Positions 12,915 to 58,655 of a stretch of 64,000 nt of DNA are shown in pieces. This DNA is from Morchella semilibera (Eukaryota; Ascomycota; Pezizomycetes; Pezizales; Morchellaceae), in NCBI GenBank assembly GCA_009192285.1, contig WBVU01000012.1:1488001-1552000 (forward strand). The letters run 5' to 3'. The translations under genes and the position numbers were made by a program. The notes under the pieces are model-generated. The model worked only from the letters and a program-made list of their open reading frames with translations. It ran no database searches and had not been told where the DNA came from. Numbering within the stretch: the first letter of the stretch is position 1; each line of letters begins with the position of its first letter.

Positions 12915-13412
12915 AACCACCACAGAAAGCCCACAAGGAGAAGCCCTACAGGAGGTCCGCAAAAAGAGAAGAAGGAAAGAGAGGAGCCAGCAGAAAAAAG
13001 GAGCCCACACAAGCAAGCCCACAAGCACAAGCCCACAGAGAAAAAAAAAACCCAAAAGAAGCCCACAGAAAAGAAGCCCACGAAAAAAACCCAAAAGTCC
13101 ACAGGAAAAAAAAACCCAAAAGGAGCCCACAGAGAAAAAAACCCAAGCCCACAGAAAAAAAAAACCCCAAAAGAAGCCCACGAGAAAAAAACCCAAAAGA
13201 ATTAAGCCCACAGAAAAAAAAAACCAAAAGCCCACAGGAAAAAAAACCCAAAAGAAGCCCACGAGAAAAAAACCCAAAAGAAGCCCACGAAAAAAACCCA
13301 AAAGAAGCCCACAGAAAAAAAAACCAAAAAGGAGCCCACAGAAAAAAAAAAACCCAAAAGCCCACAGAAAAAAAAAAGCCCACAGAAAAAATAACCCACA
13401 AAAAAAAGAAAT
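12915..13412. repeat. Purine-rich satellite array next to the U2 gene
   Basis: About 500 bp of an irregular tandem repeat of roughly 20-27 bp built from GCCCACAGAAAAAA and ACCCAAAAGAAG blocks. The variable A-run lengths create long low-complexity ORFs in several frames on both strands (Lys/Pro-rich on plus, Phe/Gly/Leu-rich on minus); these are artefacts of the repeat. The array starts about 60 bp beyond the 3' end of the U2 snRNA gene. The 12-mer ACCCAAAAGAAG of the repeat also occurs once inside the U2 gene itself, next to its putative Sm site. Confidence 0.85.
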
Positions 13413-13600
13413 CTTCCATCCCCTCGCTAGAAGCCAGAGGACAGCAGAAAACGAAGAGAAAAGATTTTTCTTCGCATCAACCGGCGGCAGTGTAATGCCG
13501 GTGACACATTGGGACAGAGGATGTGCAAGCACAGAGCCAATGCCCCTAGACCCAAAAGAAGAATAATCAACAAGGTCCGTAGACCGTTTCAGTGATTAGA

Positions 13601-13683
13601 CTTCGGTTGCAAAGTTAGCAAAAGTGTACAAAAATTAAGAGGGAGAAAAAAGAATCAAAGGAGAGGGGGAGAGAGAGACTTAC
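13601..13683 (-). other. Spliceosomal intron 2 of U2 snRNA gene
   Basis: 83 nt on the minus strand. It begins GTAAGT, is followed by a pyrimidine-rich tract, has a GCTAAC branch site (13619..13614) and ends CGAAG. It lies directly after TTCTTTTCAG of U2, splitting the 5' strand of stem IIa. The acceptor is chosen because it alone regenerates a fully paired stem IIa. Confidence 0.88.
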
Positions 13684-13718
13684 CTGAAAAGAACAGATAC
13701 TACACTTGATCTAAGCCA

Positions 13719-13767
13719 CTGTTTGAAAGTTAGCGATGATCAAGTCGAAAGGTGGGGGGTGACTTAC
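13719..13767 (-). other. Spliceosomal intron 1 of U2 snRNA gene
   Basis: 49 nt on the minus strand. It begins GTAAGT, has a consensus GCTAAC branch site (13734..13729) 9 nt before the end, and ends in ACAG. It splits stem I of U2 between GCCTTT and TGGCTTAG. Length and signals are the same as in protein-gene introns of this window. Confidence 0.9.
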
Positions 13768-13814
13768 AAAGGCAAAGAGAGCTGGGGAGAGAAGAAGGGA
13801 GTGGGGGAAACGGG

Positions 13815-13822
13815 TTTAAATA
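13815..13822 (-). promoter_or_regulatory. TATA-like box of the U2 gene
   Basis: TATTTAAA on the minus strand, about 32-39 nt upstream of the inferred U2 5' end, the spacing expected of a core promoter element. The region between is pyrimidine-rich on the transcribed sense. Confidence 0.6.
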
Positions 13823-15935
13823 GCTGGAGGGCGGACGTGCCAAGGATGTATTTTGGCCGCACTTAGCTAGGGATACGTGGGAATTTGGCCGCTGCGTAAT
13901 CGTGTGGAGAAATTCTTACGGCCCGATCATGATTGATCGATTGACATCGCCGCCAACATTTATAATTACCAGTATCCCGGATATCCATCCACTAGCACCA
14001 ATTCCCAATTCTCAACTGAGCTCTTCTCTACGCCCCAAACCCTCTTATCGCCTAAAATGCCCTCTTGAGAACCGATACGAGTGCTTTAGCTCACCGAGTG
14101 ACAATTCATGAGCCAAGACCGAATCTCAACTCTCTCCCGTGGCTAACATACTGCGCATCAACCACAGCCCTTTGCACCGATGCACGCGCATCGAACATCC
14201 GTACGACAGTTATTTGGCGGCCCAGAAAGCCCGGGGAGGGGGGTTCACGGCCAGTAGTGGGGCAAATTTCAGGCGTTTGTATATGTATCATCAGATCGAT
14301 GCACTGGAGCCTCTAGGCGAACTGCTGCTGGACGCATTCATTCCAATTCGTGTGGTACGGCCCATTAACTATTTAGTTTTACCTACATACTACTACTAGT
14401 ATTTCTACGTCAAAGGGGCGAGAACAAGAAGAGATAAGTCAAGCCCATAAATCACGGCATTACTGCAGGGAGGGTAATGGAGGGAAAATCCGGGGCCAAA
14501 AGAAACGAAACCTTTTCTTCCGTAAGGTAACTCAATTCTACTCTCATCCCCGGGATTAGGCCTAAGGCCTCTTGACCCTGGGTATTATTGAGGGGGCATG
14601 AGCGACCAAGTTATCTCAGTATTGATTTCATCGTCTATATGGATGATTTGGATTATTCCTTGATGACTTGATGATCTAATCAAGTCCAGGTGAAAAAGGT
14701 ATTTTTCAAAGCTTTCTGGGCCTTCTGCGATTTGTAATCGCTTCTTGGCGTATTAGAGACAACAAGACGAGATACAAAGCATGATACGTGCTAGAAATTA
14801 TTCTCTAGTCCAGCACGGTTGTCCAAATTTCAACCCGCAAACCCAAGGATGCTACCAAACCTAAATTTGTACCCATCAGTAATAACTCTTACCTCGCCCT
14901 TTATCCCCCTCTATAACACTTATAGAAATTTGCTATGGTTCTTGGAGTAAGACTAGTTATTATGAAAGAGAAACCTTTCAATTGACACGATAGCTCCCCT
15001 CTCCAGATCCTCAGCAGCAATAATACGGATCACCCCGAAGTGAAGAAACTAGCCCGAGTGCGCGGGAAATTGGAGAGGTTAGACTCGAACAACATGGCAG
15101 ATGATCAACTCTCGAAAACACTCATACAGCTGTAGCAATCCCAGGGCTATATATAGGGGCCCAGTGATATGCTCCCCCAACTATCTTGGTGCCATATCCA
15201 CGACACATATCCCAACATAACTTAAGGGTGCTAGGCACTAGGTCATGGCTTACACACACGGTTGGCAGGACTCTAAGTTCTATTCGTTAGTGTTGAAAGC
15301 ATGGCGGTATATCTAGCAGATATTGATATGTTACTGACTGGGAGTTCTTCTAGAGTCTGGACTATAACACTTACGCCTGTTTGAATTGTGTAGCAGTTAC
15401 ATGTAGGCAGGAACGCCTCCCGGACCCTTCTGCCGCCCAAACTCGCATTGAAAAGAACCAGCCCGTGAAGAAATATTAGCGCGATATATCCACTCAGCGA
15501 GTACGCTAGGGCGTCTGAGAATGGTATTTCTCCTGCCTTGCCCCCAGATACTCTATCCAGAACGGTAGCACCCTATAGACCAAGTGCACCTGGCCGAGCA
15601 TGTACTTACCTGTGCCGAGCATCTTATCTCTATAAGGATCTAGTTCAAATGATGGTAGATTAGCGCATCATTGTAGGGCAAAAATTGACCGCGGGTCCCG
15701 CACTGGCGCTAGTAATTTATGTATGTATGTATGTGTAATCAAAATGCTCTCATTGATTACACTATGTATGTACTTGCATGTATGTTTGGAAATAAGAAGC
15801 TCTTAGCTCTGGCGGGTTTGACTGGTTTTAATTCCACTATAAAACACCACACATTGTTTCCTGGTCAGCACCTGATAAAACTACATGTAGGTCCACCAAG
15901 GGATCATCATAAATCAGAATTAAAAAAAAAAATTT
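13823..15935. other. Intergenic region
   Basis: No gene recognised in about 2.1 kb. Short ORFs overlap in several frames near 13900-14400 without domain signatures. TACATGTA occurs at 15398 and 15882, and a TATG repeat at about 15719-15732. Confidence 0.5.
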
Positions 15936-16028
15936 GCCACAGTTGGGATTTGAACCCAAGATCTCCCTCACAGCTCTTTCTTCTACGTGCTGAGTTTCTG
16001 GGTATGTTAACCACTACACTACCGCGGC
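15936..16028 (-). tRNA. tRNA-like Pol III gene, isotype not assignable
   Basis: On the minus strand the ends form a complete 7-bp acceptor stem (GCCGCGG with CTGTGGC, two G-U pairs). The D-arm holds a consensus A box (TAGTGTAGTGG), the T-arm is TTGGG/CCCAA with a perfect B box (GGTTCAAATCC), and a run of ten T follows as a Pol III terminator. The middle is abnormal: only CCC/GGG pairs at the expected anticodon stem, and about 30 nt lie between, with no clear U33-anticodon. It could be an intron-containing tRNA, a decayed tRNA, or the head of a tRNA-derived SINE. A-box and B-box spacing is longer than in a simple 73-nt tRNA. Confidence 0.5.
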
Positions 16029-25931: not shown

Positions 25932-27269
25932 CACCCGCAGGAAAAAAGTGAGGAAACAACAAGAGTGCAACGGTCCAAACCTCAACAAAAAAGTTAAATT
26001 GAAAATGAATAGAAGCAATATAACTACACAGTGAGATACATGGTAGATACTATGGCCTCTAAACTACATTTACCATTTTGTATGACCTCCCTTGTTCTTT
26101 ACTACTGCCGCAAGTCTCCTTGGCATGCTGTCAATGATTTTATATACCCTTTTCCAGTCTAGCTTTTCCCATTCCTCCTTGGCATGCTGTGCAAGCTCTA
26201 CTTCATTGTGGGCGCGTTTTTCAGGGTCCCTCATTCTTCTTCTAAGACGGGCTTTGAGCATAGACCAACAGTTCTCAATTATATTGAGATCTGGGGAGCT
26301 AGGTGGCCAGTCAGATTTTCTGATGCCATGACTCCTACGCCAATCTACTGCCATTTGGGATGTATGGGCTTTGTGACCATCCTCAATTGTTTCATAGGTG
26401 CTAATATCTTCGGGTAGACTCTGCATAAATGGGAGAAGATGGGAGTTGAGAACTTCATCTCTATACTGTAGAGAATTCATGCCCAACTTGTCATTTTTCC
26501 GGGTTTTTTCTGCTTCGGTTCGACGGCGTATAAGGATTAATGGAGAATGGAAACCATAGGTAATGGCGGCCCATAGTTGTACAGAAAAGCGTCCAGAGCG
26601 AAATGTTGGTTGTAGATACCGGTCTTGATATGCATTCTCGATCCCAGGCTTTCTTCGAACCATTTTGGATCTTCCACCACCACCAATTTCCACCGTACAC
26701 TCATCTGTGAATATGCGTGTATGCCAAACATTCGTAGGCCAGTTTAAACGTTCCAAACACCATCGTCTCCGTTTCGCCTTTTGTTTCACCTTCAACCAGG
26801 GTTTTTTCTTTGCAATATAAACATAGTAGTTCTCGGAGCGAAGATAATTGGAAATAGTTCGTTCTGAGACATTTAGTCGTGAATCTGCCGTTATATCTGC
26901 AAGAGTTGCTTCTGGATTGGCCTCTACTAAACGGTTTAGATGTCTTTTATCGCGATCTGAGAGGACTTTGGGTCGGCCACATCGTTGTTGGTTGTTCACA
27001 GTCTCGTTTGTTTTCCATCGCTTGTGTATTTTGAAGGCTTGAGATCGTGACAAATGGAGTTTCTCGGCAATGTTGCTAAAGCTTTTGCCCTGGGCACGGC
27101 CTTCAATAACTTTTATTTTCTCATTCAGAGTAACCTCTCTTCGCTTTCCAGACTTGTCAAAAGGCATGGTTGGGATTTATTTGTGGGGCTGTATTGGCTG
27201 GGTGCGGGGGATGTGATGCTGGACCGTTGTCATGTCGCTCGTTGTTTCCTCACTTTTTTCCTGCGGGTG
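25932..27269 (-). mobile_element. Complete Tc1-type DNA transposon
   Basis: A 1338-bp element flanked on both sides by the TA target dinucleotide (25930-25931 and 27270-27271). Perfect 29-bp terminal inverted repeats begin CACCCGCAGGAAAAAAGTGA at the left and are mirrored at the right; a further imperfect CAACGGTCC match lies inside. It contains one intact transposase gene on the minus strand. Removing it reconnects AAATG-TA-CATGTATCC, so it landed in a copy of the TACATGTA-like motif common in this window. Its intactness suggests recent activity. Confidence 0.93.
26070..27167 (-). CDS. Tc1/mariner-superfamily transposase (DD34E)
   Basis: Intact 365-aa ORF without intron. The N-terminus has two helix-turn-helix regions (NIAEKLHLSRSQAFKIHKRW at about 38-55 and a second at about 90-115 with RTISNYLR). 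Catalytic residues are seen as the first Asp in RIFTDECTVE, the second Asp in IEDGHKAHTS and Glu in SSPDLNIIENCW, with 34 residues between the last two, the Tc1 signature. It would cut at the flanking TIRs and insert at TA. The second Asp motif has GHKAH where EDGAPVH or DNAPCH is more usual. Lies wholly inside the TIRs at 25932-27269. Confidence 0.93.
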   Translation of the reverse strand: MPFDKSGKRREVTLNEKIKVIEGRAQGKSFSNIAEKLHLSRSQAFKIHKRWKTNETVNNQQRCGRPKVLSDRDKRHLNRLVEANPEATLADITADSRLNVSERTISNYLRSENYYVYIAKKKPWLKVKQKAKRRRWCLERLNWPTNVWHTRIFTDECTVEIGGGGRSKMVRRKPGIENAYQDRYLQPTFRSGRFSVQLWAAITYGFHSPLILIRRRTEAEKTRKNDKLGMNSLQYRDEVLNSHLLPFMQSLPEDISTYETIEDGHKAHTSQMAVDWRRSHGIRKSDWPPSSPDLNIIENCWSMLKARLRRRMRDPEKRAHNEVELAQHAKEEWEKLDWKRVYKIIDSMPRRLAAVVKNKGGHTKW

Positions 27270-34137: not shown

Positions 34138-36038
34138 ATGGCTGAATCATCCTTAGCTGCTGACCTTTTGGCCGACTTCAACGAATCTGAAAATGAGGAC
34201 GACGACTTTGGCACAGAGAACGGAGCACCTCACTCCCCTGAGCCTAACCGTATCAAGTCGCGTGACTTTCTGGAGCTTGATGGGGATGAAGAAGAGGATG
34301 GGTCCGAAGATGAAGAGATGGGGGGTGTATCTACAGGCGTAACGCGCGGAGGATCAGAGTTGGCAGACGATGACGATGAGGAGGCGAGGAAGGCAAAAGT
34401 GGAGAAAATGCAGCTAGGTGGTGTTGACGATGTCAGGAGTGTGGCCGGCCTGATGAAAATCCTTGAGCCTGTCTTAGAGGTGTGCCATCCTACCTGCAAT
34501 TTATTTTTCAATTCCGCACCCTTTCCTGTACACTTTTGAAGGTGATACTGACTTTGGATCTGGGATTGAAATAGAAAATCGAACATTACAAAGCCTTACC
34601 CCCTTCAACAGGGCCTCAGGGAAGCGTTGAGGATAATCCAGAGTACAAGCTTCTGGTTCAGTCCAATGCCCACGCCGTATCTATCGATAACGAGATCATC
34701 CTTGTACACAAGTTTATTCGTGATCACTATGCTGTTCGATTCCCAGAGCTCGAGAACCTCGTTACCAACCCGTTAGACTATGCTAGAACTGTCTCCATTA
34801 TTGGTAACGACCTGGATATCAAATCCTTGGAGGCCCGGAATGGGAATCGTCTGCGCACCTTTTTAGATGGACCTACCTTGATGATTGTCACCGTAGAAGC
34901 GACAACCACATCTGGCCGCGACTTGTCCGACAAAGAGCTTGCGGTTACAATGAGGGCTTGTGAGATGACTCAGGCTCTCGATAGTGCAAAACGAACAATC
35001 ACAGCATATGTTGAATCCCGCATGTCCATCTTTGCACCTAATACATCAGCTATCGTTGGATCTCAAACTGCTGCACAGCTCATAAACTTTGCAGGTGGGT
35101 TGAGAGGACTTGCTGCCACTCCAGCTTGCAATATTCCAGCCCTAGGTTCAAAACGACAAACCCAAGCAGGGTTGGCAACAAATATTGGGGTCCGCCAACA
35201 AGGATACCTATTCAACTCCTCAATTATCCGTAACATACCAACGGATCTGAAGAAGCAAGCAATGCGGATTGTTTCTGCAAAGCTCATCCTGGCTGCCCGC
35301 GTTGATTTTTCACACTCTTCAACTGACGGGTCTCAGGGCGAGGACCTCAAAGAACAAGTTCTTGAAAAACTAGAGAAACTTACTATACCCCCACCAAATA
35401 AGGGACCGAAGGCCTTGCCGGCACCCGATGACAAACCTGCCCGTAAACGTGGAGGAAGAAGGGCAAGAAAAGCAAAGGATGCTACTGCAATGACGGATCT
35501 CCGAAAGGCACAAAATCGGATGGCCTTTGGAAGGCAGGAGGAGGAGACTGGATATGGTACTGGCGATAGCACACGGGGCCTCGGGATGATTGGTCAGGAG
35601 CAAACCGGACGTATTCGTGCGTTGCAAGTTGACCAACGTACTCGGGCAAAACTTGGGAAATACAATCCAGGATGGGGCACTTCAAATCCCGCTACCAGTA
35701 CCCAGTCGAGAATTGGGGGTGCACAATCCATTCTTGGCTCTCGATCATCCACCGGACCAGGTCTTGCAGCTCTGGGTGGGAGAAGTACTTTTGGTGGTGC
35801 GGGCCCTAGTGGTACCGCTAGTAGTCTGGCTTTTACCCCAGTACAGGGGATTGAGTTGATTGACCCCAAGGTGGCTGCCGAAAGGAAGAGGAAGGCTGCT
35901 GCTGAAGAAGATAGATATTTTGCGGGTGGGACATTCAGTATGGTCGGCGGCGGTACAAGCACACTCCCGAGCAAGAAGCTTGACACTGGAAAGGCAAAAG
36001 GATTAATGTTGCCCCCTTCCATCCCTCGCAAGAGTTGA
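34138..36038 (+). CDS. PRP31: U4/U6 snRNP protein Prp31
   Basis: Two exons, 34138..34479 and 34575..36038 (95-nt intron), give 601 aa; the joined text LMKILEPVLE-KIEHYKALP is the expected Prp31 continuation. After an acidic N-terminus comes the NOSIC region (DNPEYKLLVQSNA, IDNEIILVHKFIRDHY, FPELENLV). The Nop domain follows at about 230-315 with PNTSAIVGSQTAAQLINFAG and GLAATPACNIPALG, which bind the 15.5K-U4 kink-turn. A basic nuclear signal RKRGGRRARKAK lies near residue 405 and is followed by the Prp31 C-terminal domain (RMAFGRQEEE). Prp31 bridges U4/U6 and U5 in the tri-snRNP. It is followed about 1.1 kb downstream, on the same strand, by CWC22, another spliceosome gene. No frame problem seen. 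Confidence 0.95.
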
Positions 36039-37171
36039 TAGATGTGGTAAGGAAACTCGACTGAATATATCGTAAGGGAATTGTTCTCCACGAATCTTAT
36101 TGATTTTTGGTTGGCTTGGTGGGGGGGTGGGGACCCCGCCGCGTGTACTTAGAAGCAACAGGAGCGCACGGGAGTGATTAAACCTTTACGTTCATGGGAT
36201 AGGCGTTTATTAAATGGTACTATTTCCTCTTCTTTTCTTTCACTTTTGTCTCTATAATCCTGTTAACAATGCTGGAATTCTTTATCGGTATCTTAGTAGG
36301 AAGTGTAATCAGTTCGGTCTGGGGTGGTGGTTCTGTCTGCAGTAGAGGTGCAGGGGTGAGGGTCTCTTTTATTATCATGGTTGCTAAAATCAAGGCTATG
36401 ATTATGGGAATACTCTTGTTCCCTGCCCAATGAGTTCCTACGTCCCCAGTGACACATTCAATCCACATAGATATCTCTTGACTGTGGATGTGGCTGCCGA
36501 CCTTTGCGTGGTGCAGGGCGGGCGCTTAGTTGGCAGTGGGTCTGGCTGTCAGTAACCAGAAATCCGCAATATGTAGTAGGGCTCTTTGTCTACATACTAG
36601 GTCCTTTGCGCAAAAGACTCCGAGTCTTTCTCCGGTAATCTGATTGGTGCCTATCCTCCCGTCAACAAATCACACAGGCAGGAAAAGGCTCTGGGGGTCT
36701 TTTGCGTAAAGGGTCTAATAGAGTATAGCCTCGACTCAATTTTTTGCTATCTTAGGAATCAATCAATGGTAAAAGCCGACTCCGCCCATAAGATCTTAAG
36801 AGCCCATCAGAGATATTTGGCTGAGTGGCGTGGGTTGGACCTGGTGACCCATGCTACGTGGCCGAGTGCCTCTAGGACTCGCTGAAGGGGGTCTACTTTA
36901 CTACATGTAGCATTGATCAGTAGTAGCGACTCTCCTCCTAAAAGTAATGATTCCCAAATAGGTTAGTACTGTAGCTGACTCAGCAAACACACGCGACGCG
37001 AAGGAAGAAGCATACTCTGAATGCTTTGACAGCCCATCCGTCAACACCACTCAAAACCGATCATCCAGCCTACCACTGCACCGATTAATACCACCCTGCT
37101 TCCCTTCACCTGTAGGTGTATATCCATCCTGCAGTTTATAATACCACTTTCTCCTGTTATTCCAAATTGCA
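36039..37171. other. Intergenic region PRP31 - CWC22
   Basis: Contains a small MITE (36600-36715), TACATGTA in the 10-mer CTACATGTAG (36901-36910), and an 82-codon minus-strand ORF (36220-36468) with one hydrophobic segment (SIPIIIALILATMII) that I cannot assign; it could be a small membrane protein or chance. Confidence 0.45.
36600..36715. mobile_element. Small TA-flanked MITE
   Basis: 116 bp between TA dinucleotides (36598-36599 and 36716-36717). Ends are inverted repeats of about 35 bp at roughly 75-80% identity. The left begins GGTCCTTTGCGCAAAAGAC and the right, read inward, GACCCTTTACGCAAAAGAC. No coding capacity. TA flanks fit mobilisation by a Tc1/mariner-type transposase, but its ends do not match the Tc1 element at 25932. 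Confidence 0.7.
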
Positions 37172-39979
37172 ATGGAGGACGTAGTTGTCCAATCCGTGGT
37201 TCGCCTCCCATCGCCTCCCCCCCAATCTACAAACAGCAAGCGCAAATGGTCACCATCCTCAACATCACCATCCCCACGTCGCTATCGCTCGCCCCCCCGG
37301 GGTCCGGCTCGTGGGGGCCCATTACTTCCTGATATCGATCCCCAACGCGCTATGGAACGCGAGCGACAACTCGCCGAGAGGATGCGTCAGCGGGAATCGG
37401 AGAAGGAGAAGGAACAGGAGAAGCCAAAACTCGATCCGAAAGCTGAATACGAGAAGCTCCTCTCTATGAGATCTGGGGGTACATATATCCCGCCAGCCCG
37501 CCTGCGCGCTTTACAGGCACAAATCACCGATAAGAACTCAAAGGAATATCAGCGCATGGCATGGGAGGCTCTGAAGAAGAGCATCAACGGACTAATCAAT
37601 AAGGTTAACGTTTCAAACATCAAACATATTGTTCCGGAGCTTTTTGGGGAAAATTTGATTCGTGGCAGGGGGCTCTACTGTAGATCGATTATGAAGGCAC
37701 AGGCTGCATCTTTGCCATTCACCGCTATTTATGCTGCCATGACCGCCATTGTCAATACGAAATTGCCTCAGGTTGGCGAACTGTTGTTGAACAGGCTTGT
37801 GGTCCAATTCCGGAAAGCATTCAAGAGAAATGACAAGGCAGTGTGTCTCAGTAGTACTACCTTTATTGCCCATCTTTGCAATCAGCAGGTTGCCAATGAG
37901 ATTTTAGCAATTGAAATTCTTATGCTTCTCTTGAATAAGCCGACTGATGATTCTGTGGAGATCGCTGTGGGTTTAATGCGGGAAGTTGGTGCTCACCTTG
38001 AAGAGATGTCACCTCCGGCAAATAACGCCGTTTACGAACAGTTCAGAAACAATTCTTCACGAGGCTAATATCGATAAGCGGATTCAGTATATGATTGAGG
38101 TCTTGTTTCAAGTCCGCAAGGATAAGTACAAAGACCACCCCATCATAAAGGAGGAGCTGGATCTAGTTGAGGAAGAGGACCAAATCACTCATAGGACCGA
38201 GCTAGATGATGACATCGATACAGCTGACGGTTTGAATGTATTCAAATTTGATCCTGACTGGGAGGAACACGAGGAGCTTTATAGAAAGACAAAGGCAGAA
38301 ATCTTGGGGGAAGGCAGCGAGGATGGAAGCGACGAGGGCGAGGACGATGATAGTAGTGATGAGGACGAGGAAAAACAAGAGGATAAAAAAATCGAAATTC
38401 AAGATCAGACTAATACAAATCTGGTCAACCTGCGAAGAACGATTTACCTTACTATAATGTCCTCGGTCGACTTTGAGGAATGTTGTCACAAGCTTATGAA
38501 GGTATATACTCACCCTGCTGTGATAAAAAGTTGAAACTGACAGCTTGGGATAGATTACGCTTCCTGCGGGGCTGGAGAAGGAACTCTGCTTGATGGTCAT
38601 TGAATGTTGTTCCCAGGAGCGCACATACAGCAAATTTTACGGGCTGATTGGCGAACGATTCGCAAAGTTGAACCGACTTTGGACCGAGTTATTTGAGGAG
38701 TGTTTTCGAACGTATTACGATACAATCCATAGATATGAAACTAACCGTTTGCGTAACATTGCGCGGTTTTTTGGGCATCAGTTATCCAGCGATGCTCTGG
38801 GTTGGCATGTTCTCTCTGTTGTTCACATAAACGAAGAGGAGACTACTTCCTCGTCACGCATTTTCGTCAAGATTCTTTTCCAGGACCTGGCGGAATGTAT
38901 GGGGATGAAGAAGTTACAAGAGCGGTTGAAGGACCCATTTCTTCAGGACGCCTACACCGGACTTTTTCCTAAGGATAACCCAAGAAATACTAGGTTTTCT
39001 ATTAATTACTTTACTAGTATCGGTATGGGCGGTGTTACTGAGGACATGAGGGAGCACCTCAAGAACAACGTTATATCTCAAGCAGCTATTGCTCCGCCTC
39101 CACCAGCCGGAGATGTATCAGATGCAAGCTCAATTAGCTCCAGGTCCAGTTATTCGTATTATACTGGAAGTTCACGCTCCAGGTCCCGATCCCGTTCCGG
39201 ATCCTATGACAGCCGGTCAAGGAGCCGGAGTAGAGGAAGGCCCTCCAAAGGGAAAGGAAAAGCACGAAGCTACACGCGATCTCTTAGTGGAAGCGACCGC
39301 AGCCGGAGTCCCAGCCGGAGTCGGAGCCGCAGTCGGAGCAAGAGTTATGATTCTTACTCAAACCGCTCAATGTCTTACTCGCGCTCTCGAAGTCGATCAT
39401 TATCGCCATATGCAAGGAAAACAAAACGGGAAAGATCTTTATCAAGGGATTCTGGGAGTTCAAGGTCCGGATCTCGATCTCGGTCCCGGTCATATACTCC
39501 AGCAAAAAAAGGAGGCCACAGAACCACGAGGGAGGCGGCGGTCTAGATCTTATTCATCCTCCATCAACGACCGATCTCGGAAAGCCATTGTTAGAGACCG
39601 TAGTTACTCATCAGCCAGCCGTAGTCCTTCACATTTTAGCAGATCGCCGACCCCCAAACGCTCCGTCAAGAGCCGAAAGGACAGCTATACCCCGCCACCA
39701 CGAAGCAGACGACGAAGCCCCACTCCTGGCGACAGTAGAAGCAGGAGCCGGAGCCCACCGCCAGCGCGTAGTCCTGACAAGGATAGGGACAGGGGTTCGG
39801 GGAGGTGGGATAGGCATGATGGAAGGAGGGATAAGGGGGATAATTATCGGGGAAGTAGTGGAAAAGACAGGGGGAACCCAAGATACGATACCAGGAGAAG
39901 GAACGAGGGGCCTGTTAATGAAACCTGCGAACAAGGTGGAAGAGGGGCAGGCAGAGTTAGAGCTGCTGACTTCTTGTGA
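37172..39979 (+). CDS. CWC22: Pre-mRNA splicing factor Cwc22, frame broken twice
   Basis: Exons 37172..38501 and 38554..39979 (52-nt intron). The N-terminus is RS/SP-rich. The MIF4G domain covers about 135-330 ([38 protein letters not shown]). The region [15 protein letters not shown] and the MA3 domain ([20 protein letters not shown], then [12 protein letters not shown]-like and [12 protein letters not shown]) follow, then a long RS domain. As sequenced the frame breaks twice: one extra A near 38051 (FRN to [10 protein letters not shown]) and one extra A in the A7 run 39504-39510, after which the RS-rich frame continues to 39979. Discounting both, coding length is an exact multiple of three (917 codons). 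Cwc22 recruits eIF4A3 to the spliceosome and is essential in yeast, so sequencing error is likelier than loss. Confidence 0.88.
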
Positions 39980-55556: not shown

Positions 55557-56356
55557 CTTTCAACTTGAAACTCTGGGAGAGGTATCAGGTTGGAGCTGTC
55601 GAAGTGGATGGTATCAAGTTGAAATGAAATTGAAAAGGCGAATGATTAACGTAATATAGGTAGAACACACCAGCTCAATGCCTGGCGAGGTTGTGAAGAG
55701 TAATGGGGATGGTGAAGAAAGGTCTCCCGAGGGTGGAAGAAGCAGTTCTTATACCTCTTCTTCCAACACTCACACGAAATCAAATTAGTCATTAAGAGCT
55801 ATGAGAGGATCTTTCGAAAGCTTCCACAGTCTTCGCCAGAACGCACAGAGCCAGAATCATTGATTGCTCGAGTGTGTTTCGATGCTTTTGGGTAAGTTAC
55901 TAAATGACGTAGATCAACATGAGTGTTGGTATTCGAGTCCACTTTGGTGTTGGCATGATAGCTTTTCTTTGAATAGTTAGCTGTTTTGATCTCGTTTTCA
56001 AGTACAGATATAGTCATTTGGGTATCAAAAGATAGGGATTTCCGGCATTGCCCACGATTTTGAGCCACGATTTCGAGGGTATTCGTGAAACCTTTTGGAG
56101 TAGTGGTGGACTCCGAGAAGGTTTGGCCGATGTGTGGGATAGATGTTGGGTTTGTTCTGAGAGCATATGTTGGGTTTGCTCTGAGAGCATATGTTGGTTA
56201 GTTTTCAACGTGAATATATGACGTTGCTAGAAGGTTTGTTTAGCAAGAGGTTATGTGCCCTCCAAGACACCCTAGCAAGTATTAGTAATCTACAGGCTTG
56301 GCAGTAGTAATTTTGAACCATCTCCGAGAGAGCCATGGGAGCTATCGCGACACCCA
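55557..56356. other. Spacer inside the Plavaka-like element
   Basis: No gene supported. Contains a direct duplication of a GAGCATATGTTGGGTTTG unit near 56150-56195 and an AGCTATCGC motif just upstream of the transposase start. Confidence 0.45.
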
Positions 56357-58655
56357 ATGAAGTCCTCCTGTCCTTTTTGCAGCAAGCGATATAGCTCCTC
56401 GGCGAACTTTGAGAAGCACCTACGGAATATCCACCCTAACGAAGCGGATGGATGGTTCAAAAATCAATGCGATCTTTTGCAAGAGAATCACAAACGACTA
56501 CAGGAGTCTCACGAGGTTTCAGAAAGCTCTGATCAGGATGATGCTAGTTGCGAGGACGGGTCATCTACATATTCTAACTTCTCTCAACGAACTGCTGGAG
56601 ATTCAGACCTAGAATCAGAGTCTTACTTTGTAGACAATAGGGAGGATTGTGAGGAGGAGTTGGGAGTTACTCGCGATGCATCCACCACGGTCTACGAAGG
56701 TGCTGGGGAGGCTCTATATCGCTCTGAGGGCTATCAGGAAAGCGCACAACGGCTTCTCGGCAACCCATGGCACCCTTTCAATTCATCTTATGAATTCCGG
56801 ATGGCGCGGTACTTTATTTTGTCCAAAGCATCACAAGGAAGTATCGATAGCTTCTTTCTACATGCCCCTGGAGACCATTGCCATAGCTCCTATAGAAATG
56901 GGCGAGGTTTTATACGAAAAATGGAGGAAATGAACGATTGCCTAGGGAGATCAACATGGAAGCATGCGGAGGTTGTTATAGGAGGGAAAAACATACCATA
57001 CTACTATCGCGACCCTATGACAATTATTCGATTCCTCCTTGGACAACGGGCATTCAAGGAATCTCTTATATTTACACCATCAATGGATTACAACGAGAAA
57101 GGAGAGAGAATTTACGGCCAAATGCATACAGGGGACTGGTGGTGGGAAACACAGGTGAGGAGAAGCTTTCCGAGATCTTTAGGAGGTTTCGTTAGAGTCA
57201 GAAAAGTCATGACTGATCTCAAAAAGAATTCTCTCCCTGAGGGTTCAACGTTAGTTCCGGTAATCTGTGCCTCGGATGGCACTCACCTGACGAACTTTAG
57301 TGGTGATAAAAAGGCATGGCCAATCTATCTCACAATTGGGAATATCAATTCCTCTGTGAGAATGAAAGTCTCTGGACACTCGTTAGTACTCCTAGCGCTA
57401 TTACCAGTGCCCCCTAAGCTCAGTTCAAATACGAGTGCGAATGCAACTTTGCGTCGGGAATCGCAGATGGCTCTGCACAACGCTCTCAAAGATATCTTCA
57501 AAAGCCTGAAAAGTAGTGGCGAGGAGGGCGAGTTGATATCCTGTGCGGATGGATATGAACGGCTATGTTTTCCTGTACTGTTTGGGTGGATCGCGGACCA
57601 ACCTGAGCACGCCTCGTTGCAAAACATCAGCAATTTCGCCTGCCCAAGATGTGAGGTGGAGTATAAGAACCTTGGAAGCTATCGGCAGAGCTCTATGCGT
57701 GATCAAGAGACCTACCAGGAGATGGTACGGCAGTTTAATGAGAACCCGACGAATACATCACCAGTAGAATACCTTGTATCGAGGTCTTTGAAGACTCTCT
57801 TCAATGCTTTATGGGATATGCCGAGATGCAAGGTGTACGACCTGAACAAACCGGACCTATTACACAACATCTACCTTGGAATGTTAAAGCATATGATGGA
57901 ATGGGTTCAAGGGTTTCTCAAGAAACACGGGCGTCTCGACGCGTTCGATATAGCATGGTCAAAGATTGGGCCTTATCCTCGGCTTGCAGTACCGAACAAG
58001 CCTTACAGGGCAACCACGCAATGGCAGGGGAAAGAGATGCGAAACCTAGGGCGTATAGTTCTGGGAGCTTTGGCGGTGGCTCTGAGAAATCCAGGGAGTT
58101 CTGTCAGAGCTGACTTCGGAAAGGCTTTGAAATGCGTTCGGGCAATGATTGACTTTCACCTGATGGCTCAATACGGGAATCATACCAAGAGTACACTTGA
58201 ATATCTAGAGAGTTATCTCAAGGACTTCCATAGGTATAAGGATATCTTTTTAGAATTTCGAGCCTACAAGCAAACTAAGAAGGGATGCAAAGAATCGAAC
58301 ACGGGCTCTCCGGCAGGAGAGCTCTCAGAGGATTCACCGTGGCTTAGAAGAGGTCCGCGAGATCCGCGAGAAATCTCATTTCAACTTCATCAAATTGCAT
58401 CAATTATCACATTACCGAGAGCATGTGGAGCGATTCGGGAATATTCCTATGTTCTCTACGGATATCAGCGAACTGGCCCACGTACACCAAATCAAAGAAG
58501 CATACGCCGCTTCAAACAAAGTTGATGCGGCGACCCAAATTCTTGATTACGGCGGAAGACGATTGGCACTAGAAATACGGATACTGAACCTCAAGGATAT
58601 CGTGGAAGCTGACGCATCTTCTAAGAACCGCAACGAGCCTATGGGAGCATCGTGA
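56357..58655 (+). pseudogene. Plavaka-type transposase, one frameshift
   Basis: Start MKSSCPFCSKRYSSSANFEK carries a C2H2 finger (Cys5, Cys8, His21, His26), usual for Plavaka transposases. Family blocks follow: YYYRDPMTIIRFLLG, a GDWWWE motif, VPVICASDGTHLTNFSG (probable catalytic Asp), VRMKVSGHSLVLLALLP, and MPRCKVYDLNKPDLLHNIYL. At 58272-58274 (CAAACT) one extra base breaks the frame. The original frame goes to a stop at 58525, while the coding continues in the next frame with REKSHFNFIKLHQLSHYREH and MFSTDISELAHVHQIKEAY to 58655, matching the family C-terminus. Without the extra base the product would be about 765 aa. Whether the break is real or a sequencing error cannot be told. Confidence 0.8.

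Follow-up and report, generated by a model that had tools for sequence, protein, structure and literature searches.

The spliceosomal RNAs U1 and U5 of the basidiomycete yeast Rhodotorula hasegawae contain mRNA-type introns, and U2 of the same yeast reportedly carries a single intron located just downstream of its branch-recognition domain. The U2 intron of R. hasegawae is the subject of Takahashi et al. 1993, which is named in the reference list of PMC2586383. In PMC5832005, U3 and U6 are described as the only small structured RNAs so far known to be often interrupted by introns; its references 11–13 concern the U6 introns of fission yeast and other fungi, and U3 is stated to be intron-bearing in the vast majority of Pezizomycotina.

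Within the window, the 64-kb stretch of DNA analysed here, the minus strand contains a U2 snRNA gene in three exons separated by two introns (Table 1). The first-pass annotation had read U2 in three pieces around gaps of 49 and 83 nt that begin with GTAAGT, contain GCTAAC and end in AG; these coordinates agree to the base, and all three motifs are present in intron 1 and intron 2. Intron 1 sits between U2 nucleotides 16 and 17, in the loop of stem I and between the helix II and helix I strands, and intron 2 sits between nucleotides 51 and 52, inside stem IIa. The U2 segment flanked by both introns lies opposite U6 and the branch site when the spliceosome is at work, and removal of the introns yields the canonical U2 sequence. 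Judged from its sequence, the window gene is very probably a member of a U2 family whose transcripts carry ordinary U2-type spliceosomal introns, and the annotated two-intron structure is supported by paralogs that carry introns at identical places.

Table 1 Features of the U2 gene in the window and of its flanking elements (window positions)
Feature	Position	Strand	Remarks
Upstream element GGCCAAA, at -75	13852..13858	-	Exact in 4 of 6 scanned U2 loci and 3 of 5 U1 loci
Upstream element CTTGGCAC, at -61	13837..13844	-	Other loci carry CTTGGCRC or the inverse GGCGCCAAG
TATA box TATTTAA, at -39	13816..13822	-	TATA spacing common to U2, U1 and U4 loci
U2 exon 1	13783-13768, 16 nt	-	Most likely 5′ end, 5′ half of stem I, U2/U6 helix II strand; placed by TATA spacing, sequence and U6 pairing
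Intron 1	13767-13719, 49 nt	-	GTAAGT...ACAG, branch site GCTAAC at 13734-13729; same position in L001, L002, L003 and L005
U2 exon 2	13718-13684, 35 nt	-	3′ half of stem I, helix I strand, branch-recognition GTAGTA, 5′ half of stem IIa
Intron 2	13683-13601, 83 nt	-	GTAAGT...GAAG, branch site GCTAAC at 13619-13614; same position in L005 and L006
U2 exon 3	13600 to ~13465	-	3′ half of stem IIa (CTGAAA, 13592-13587), stems IIb, III and IV; 3′ end approximate
Poor Sm-like site TTCTTTTGG	13560-13552	-	Within exon 3
Conserved downstream element CCTCTGGCTTCTAGCGAGGGG (about CTGGCTNNTAGCGAG)	13420..13440	-	Found by eye; similar sequence after 7 of 7 U2 loci

Like the R. hasegawae gene, this U2 has an mRNA-type intron, and the reported location of the yeast intron broadly corresponds to the region of intron 2. 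The yeast gene reportedly has one intron, whereas here there are two, the first of them in the stem I loop. The present case also differs in that the number of introns varies from none to two among several paralogs, and in belonging to a probable ascomycete, the group named in the first-pass annotation. U1 and U5 of R. hasegawae are likewise spliceosomal RNAs with mRNA-type introns, but U1 and U5 here have no intron-sized gaps. U6 of fission yeast and other fungi resembles the present U2 in holding spliceosomal introns near the catalytic part of an essential spliceosomal RNA; unlike that of fission yeast, the U6 of this genome fits its model with no intron in it. U3, in contrast to U2, is not a part of the spliceosome, and the U3 loci here are unbroken in the 5′ stem. 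The U3 genes of fungi nevertheless share with this U2 short GT-AG introns, an RCTRAY branch site, a location in the 5′ part of the gene and a presence that varies between paralogs (PMC5832005). Among the literature matches listed, which cover only part of the relevant journals, there is no report of ascomycete U2 introns. The R. hasegawae U2 intron and the introns in U6 and U3 are already known; a U2 gene with two introns, the first of which occurs in all canonical copies found, appears to be new.

Models of the other RNAs match one locus for U6, one for U4, two for U5 and five for U1 (two of them over the cut-off), full length and at near-model lengths, and the alignments of U6, U4, two U1 loci and U5 contain no intron-sized gaps. 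Three U3 loci are unbroken through the 5′ stem, and the remaining one, L025, has the same sequence as L024. Among the U1, U2, U3, U4, U5 and U6 loci inspected, U2 alone was seen to be split. Contigs C9 and C10 each carry U5 and U3 loci, closely matched in position and with identical surroundings; a duplicate contig or two haplotypes may therefore be present in the assembly. Elsewhere in the window, a tRNA gene at 15935-16028 has an intron-sized insertion in its anticodon arm (32 nt against 11 in the Rfam model).

The Rfam U2 model, run against the genome of 56.76 Mb in 23 contigs, revealed seven U2 loci; a 33-nt exon-2 pattern with up to 3 mismatches, run over the whole genome, returned the identical seven and none besides. 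Intron 1 is complete in five of these loci, and intron 2 is present in three (the window copy, L005 and the decayed L006). L001, L002 and L003 contain an intron 1 of 86, 64 and 71 nt, respectively, and no intron 2. L005 has both introns (55 and 78 nt) and lies on the same contig as the window copy, C11, 21.5 kb apart and on the opposite strand. The core GATCAAGTGTAGTA is unchanged in five copies (the window copy, L001, L002, L003 and L005), all with intron 1 and two of them with both introns, and across their first 51 nt a single loop base differs, in L002. The branch-recognition GTAGTA within GATCAAGTGTAGTATCTGTTCTT is exact in the same five, while GATCAAGTGTAGTATCTGTTCTT has one change in L004 and two in L006. 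The latter locus retains intron 2 (66 nt) and an apparent 3′ part of intron 1; exon 1 and any visible upstream element are absent, stem III is broken and the core carries two changes, and L006 looks like a pseudogene.

An intact intronless U2, which the first-pass annotation had proposed looking for genome-wide, was found in canonical form neither by the model search nor by the exon-2 pattern in 56.76 Mb. The sole intronless locus, L004, is not a canonical U2: position 27 is changed from C to A, the loop of stem I is shorter by one base and stem III contains a T-T mispair. It is very unlikely that a canonical intronless gene makes the U2 and is simply absent from the assembly: the assembly, in 23 contigs, is flawed, as the identical stretches on C9 and C10 indicate, but 56.8 Mb searched in two ways gave the same seven loci, and the five canonical loci, spread over four contigs, look kept by selection. 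In an unrooted tree of the spliced copies, L004, L005, L006 and the window copy are separated from L001-L003 with a support of 87, and L005 pairs with the window copy with a support of only 49. Because the tree is unrooted, it does not decide between loss of intron 1 in L004 and its original absence.

On the unspliced window, the Rfam model RF00004, whose use the first-pass annotation had advised, matches 13733-13465 on the minus strand with 86.2 bits (E 1.3e-15), above its gathering cut-off of 46 and with gaps at both intron places. What this match takes as the 5′ end of U2 is the tail of intron 1. In the genome-wide search with RF00004, six of the seven U2 loci exceed the cut-off and the window copy, clipped there, scores 45.3 bits; in a further comparison with the model, all seven exceed it. 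The Rfam match seems full length (1-192) in L001, L002 and L003, yet the end of intron 1 is taken as the U2 5′ end there too, so such introns may go unnoticed in other genomes. Aligned globally to the Rfam U2 consensus, the spliced sequence scores 109; keeping intron 1 lowers this to 56 and keeping intron 2 to 38, and two unspliced versions reach 15 and -15. Much of the difference is gap cost, and 131-136 of the 192 consensus positions are matched in every version. Every hand-chosen pair of stems I, IIa, IIb, III and IV forms in the window copy. Energy folding forms stem I in the spliced version and not in the unspliced one, the energies themselves not being comparable across different lengths.

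The introns of the U2 family share their splice signals. Across the five introns 1 and three introns 2 of the genome, the donor is GTAAGT in seven of eight and GTATGT in one, and the branch site conforms to RCTRAY in seven of eight and reads GCTAAC in six. Intron 1 ends in CAG or TAG, and the acceptor of intron 2 is AAG in the window copy and L005 and TAG in L006; the window copy itself combines CAG at intron 1 with AAG, not the usual YAG form, at intron 2. PMC5832005 describes AAG acceptors as rare among fungal U3 introns, and gives the fungal intron consensus as a GTRWGT donor, an RCTRAY branch site and 6-36 nt from branch to acceptor. Both window introns conform to this donor and branch consensus, with 10 and 13 nt between the branch hexamer and the intron end. 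Removal of the U2 introns by a U12-type spliceosome is unlikely, as their donors and branch sites are of the U2 type; a genome search for U12 gave no match, but it gave none in its controls either, so absence is not implied.

The pattern GTAAGT-N-GCTAAC-N-AG, scanned at two spacings on both strands of the window, occurs in three distinct places, two of which are the U2 introns. Shuffled sequences give means of 0.11 and 0.20 for the two spacings; at least 5 matches of the first-spacing pattern were reached in 0 of 100 shuffles and at least 2 of the second in 5 of 100. Short consensus motifs do arise by chance in fungal DNA, but it is scarcely credible that the gaps are insertions, decay or alignment artefacts that look like introns by accident: the pattern is expected 0.1-0.2 times per window, the gaps recur at the same positions in five and three loci, and conserved splice signals accompany diverged interiors and an exact restoration of U2.

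The first-pass annotation had also likened the two gaps to local protein-gene introns, a likeness that does not extend to the donors, GTAAGT being used in none of six protein introns against seven of eight U2 introns. The six, identified manually, come from RVB2 (four), PRP31 (one) and a CWC22-like gene (one), and their donors are GTACGG, GTAGTC, GTGGGT, GTCTAT, GTGTGC and GTATAT. In five cases a single open frame spans the 120 nt of joined exon sequence; in the remaining case, intron 1 of RVB2, leader sequence precedes the ATG. The best solved relatives of RVB2 from the window are probably entries of Chaetomium thermophilum. In this small sample, the U2 donors appear stronger than the six protein donors, as if quick removal had been selected. 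Noisy counts of donor/branch combinations in 253 kb of this genome show a roughly two-fold excess for GTAAGT (18 against 9.7), GTATGT (27 against 12.8) and GTGAGT (21 against 9.1), with no excess for GTACGT or GTAAGA; over all donors in the same 253 kb, GCTAAC as a branch site is not enriched (6 seen, 5.8 expected). The splicing-factor genes PRP31 and CWC22-like, the latter named from its MIF4G and MA3 domains, occupy window positions 34575-36038 and 37142-39546, ~21-26 kb from the U2 gene. Transposase-like ORFs of the Tc1/mariner type (HTH_Tnp_Tc3_2, DDE_3) and of Plavaka are located at 26073-27176 and 56276-58522 of the window. Two U2 patterns gave 0 matches each against viral contigs, and a plasmid collection gave no match.

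Unlike the introns, the U2 exons are conserved. Over the 10 pairs among the five intact-core copies, exons 1 and 2 differ at 4 of 510 compared positions, while the intron-1 interiors differ at 58 of 322 and add 216 gapped columns. The window copy and L005 are 91.8% identical in the exons, 83.3% in intron 1 and 73.7% in intron 2; their identity is 83.5% over 110 nt upstream and 76.7% over the 100 nt immediately downstream, and in the sequence beyond these flanks it is 60.2% and 53.1% on the two sides. Together with the shuffles and the shared positions, this contrast between exon and intron divergence led us to reject a chance resemblance of the gaps to introns. We examined stem pairing in an alignment of six copies, with L006 omitted and with stem IIb and lower stem III uncounted since the alignment shifts there. 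In total, 94.9% of 156 cells are paired and three stem IV pairs are altered on both sides. The percentage paired is reached by 5 of 500 shuffles, the covariation score by 5 of 500 and the count of pairs changed on both sides by 20 of 500, and structures shifted by one to three columns pair 30-47% of cells. Further pair types are in no excess over the shuffles (453 of 500 reach the observed value), hence this measure lends no support.

Upstream sequences were scanned in six U2 loci, leaving out L006. TATA lies 38-39 nt before AGCTCTCTTTGCC in all six, and 38-41 nt before the RNA start in the U4 locus and in all five U1 loci, where the 5′ start is ATACTTACC. CTTGGCRC or its inverse GGCGCCAAG is located at -57 to -64 in every scanned U2 locus, and an element of this type or a variant at -56 to -65 in every U1 locus (5/5); the scan of the U4 locus gave no match to it. 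The window copy has GGCCAAA as well as TATA and the CTTGGCRC-type element, the latter two with the spacing seen in U1, which makes exon 1 most likely the U2 5′ end and puts intron 1 inside the transcript. A promoter of the type shared with U1 would drive the window gene. Exon 1 can form 11 pairs with U6 of its own genome, with one bulge and in the register of U2/U6 helix II (-13.9 kcal/mol); as 37 of 5000 shuffles equal this energy somewhere on U6 and at least 8 other 13-mers of the locus pair more strongly, this pairing is weak support.

Downstream of the gene, CCTCTGGCTTCTAGCGAGGGG is a possible 3′-end processing signal. Sequences loosely like CTGGCTNNTAGCGAG are also found downstream of U1 and U4 loci. 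Degenerate tandem repeats follow the U2 gene at window positions 13069-13411. The hexamer GTGGGC occurs on the strand of the U2 gene 17 times in the 1.3 kb downstream and 0 times upstream; among 18 snRNA/U3 loci scanned, it is also found downstream of L011 (26), L012 (4), L009 (1) and L005 (1), the other 13 having none.

The first-pass annotation had placed a candidate Sm site in exon 3. Read by eye, the Sm-like sequence of the window copy is a poor one, TTCTTCTTTTGG, against ATTTTTG in L001, L002, L003 and L005. The claim of a split U2 gene consequently rests more on the family, where L005 combines both introns with a good Sm site, than on the window copy. We give appreciable weight, though somewhat less than even, to the reading that the U2 family is functional and spliced while the window copy is a decaying or minor gene that makes little U2. 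It alone among the five canonical-core copies has the poor site (by eye), and it forms the longer branch of the L005/window pair (0.114 against 0.019). On the other hand, its first 51 nt are identical to those of L001, L003 and L005, its TATA and both upstream elements are in place, its listed stems are paired, and both of its introns keep the GTAAGT donor and the GCTAAC branch site. Compared with L001, L002, L003 and L005, the window copy may yield less U2.

The excision of U2-type introns is carried out by U2-containing spliceosomes. Existing spliceosomes with mature U2 would thus remove both U2 introns, and only the spliced RNA would place the U6-pairing 5′ end beside the branch-recognition segment. 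Since U2-type introns need U2-containing spliceosomes, new U2 would depend on old U2; and since the U6-pairing end joins the branch-recognition segment only after splicing, U2 production would depend on U2 already present. We infer a loop in which U2 is needed to make U2.

If it works, L004 could break this self-dependence. That L004 is the working U2 or the starter of the loop, the intron-bearing copies being surplus, seems improbable to us: it has no intron, a TATA at -39, CTTGGCGC at -62 and a downstream element, but it also has the altered position 27, the shorter stem I loop and the stem III mispair, and the five other copies preserve their exons and not their introns, which surplus genes would not do. 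Position 27 pairs with U6 in helix Ia, and the change there makes L004 doubtful as a working U2. On balance, we favour a self-dependent family in which every working U2 gene would be intron-bearing and no U2-free route would exist, active U2 being passed from cell to cell and via spores in a self-reinforcing supply.

Introns of this kind are said to have arisen by reverse splicing into snRNAs at work, and the location of both introns beside the segment facing U6 and the branch site fits that proposal. The seven loci, with none, one or two introns, form a natural series for the gain and loss of snRNA introns. Branch points are located by U2. Should every working copy require splicing, this organism's spliceosome would be self-dependent, and blocked splicing should lower mature U2 with no intronless reserve.
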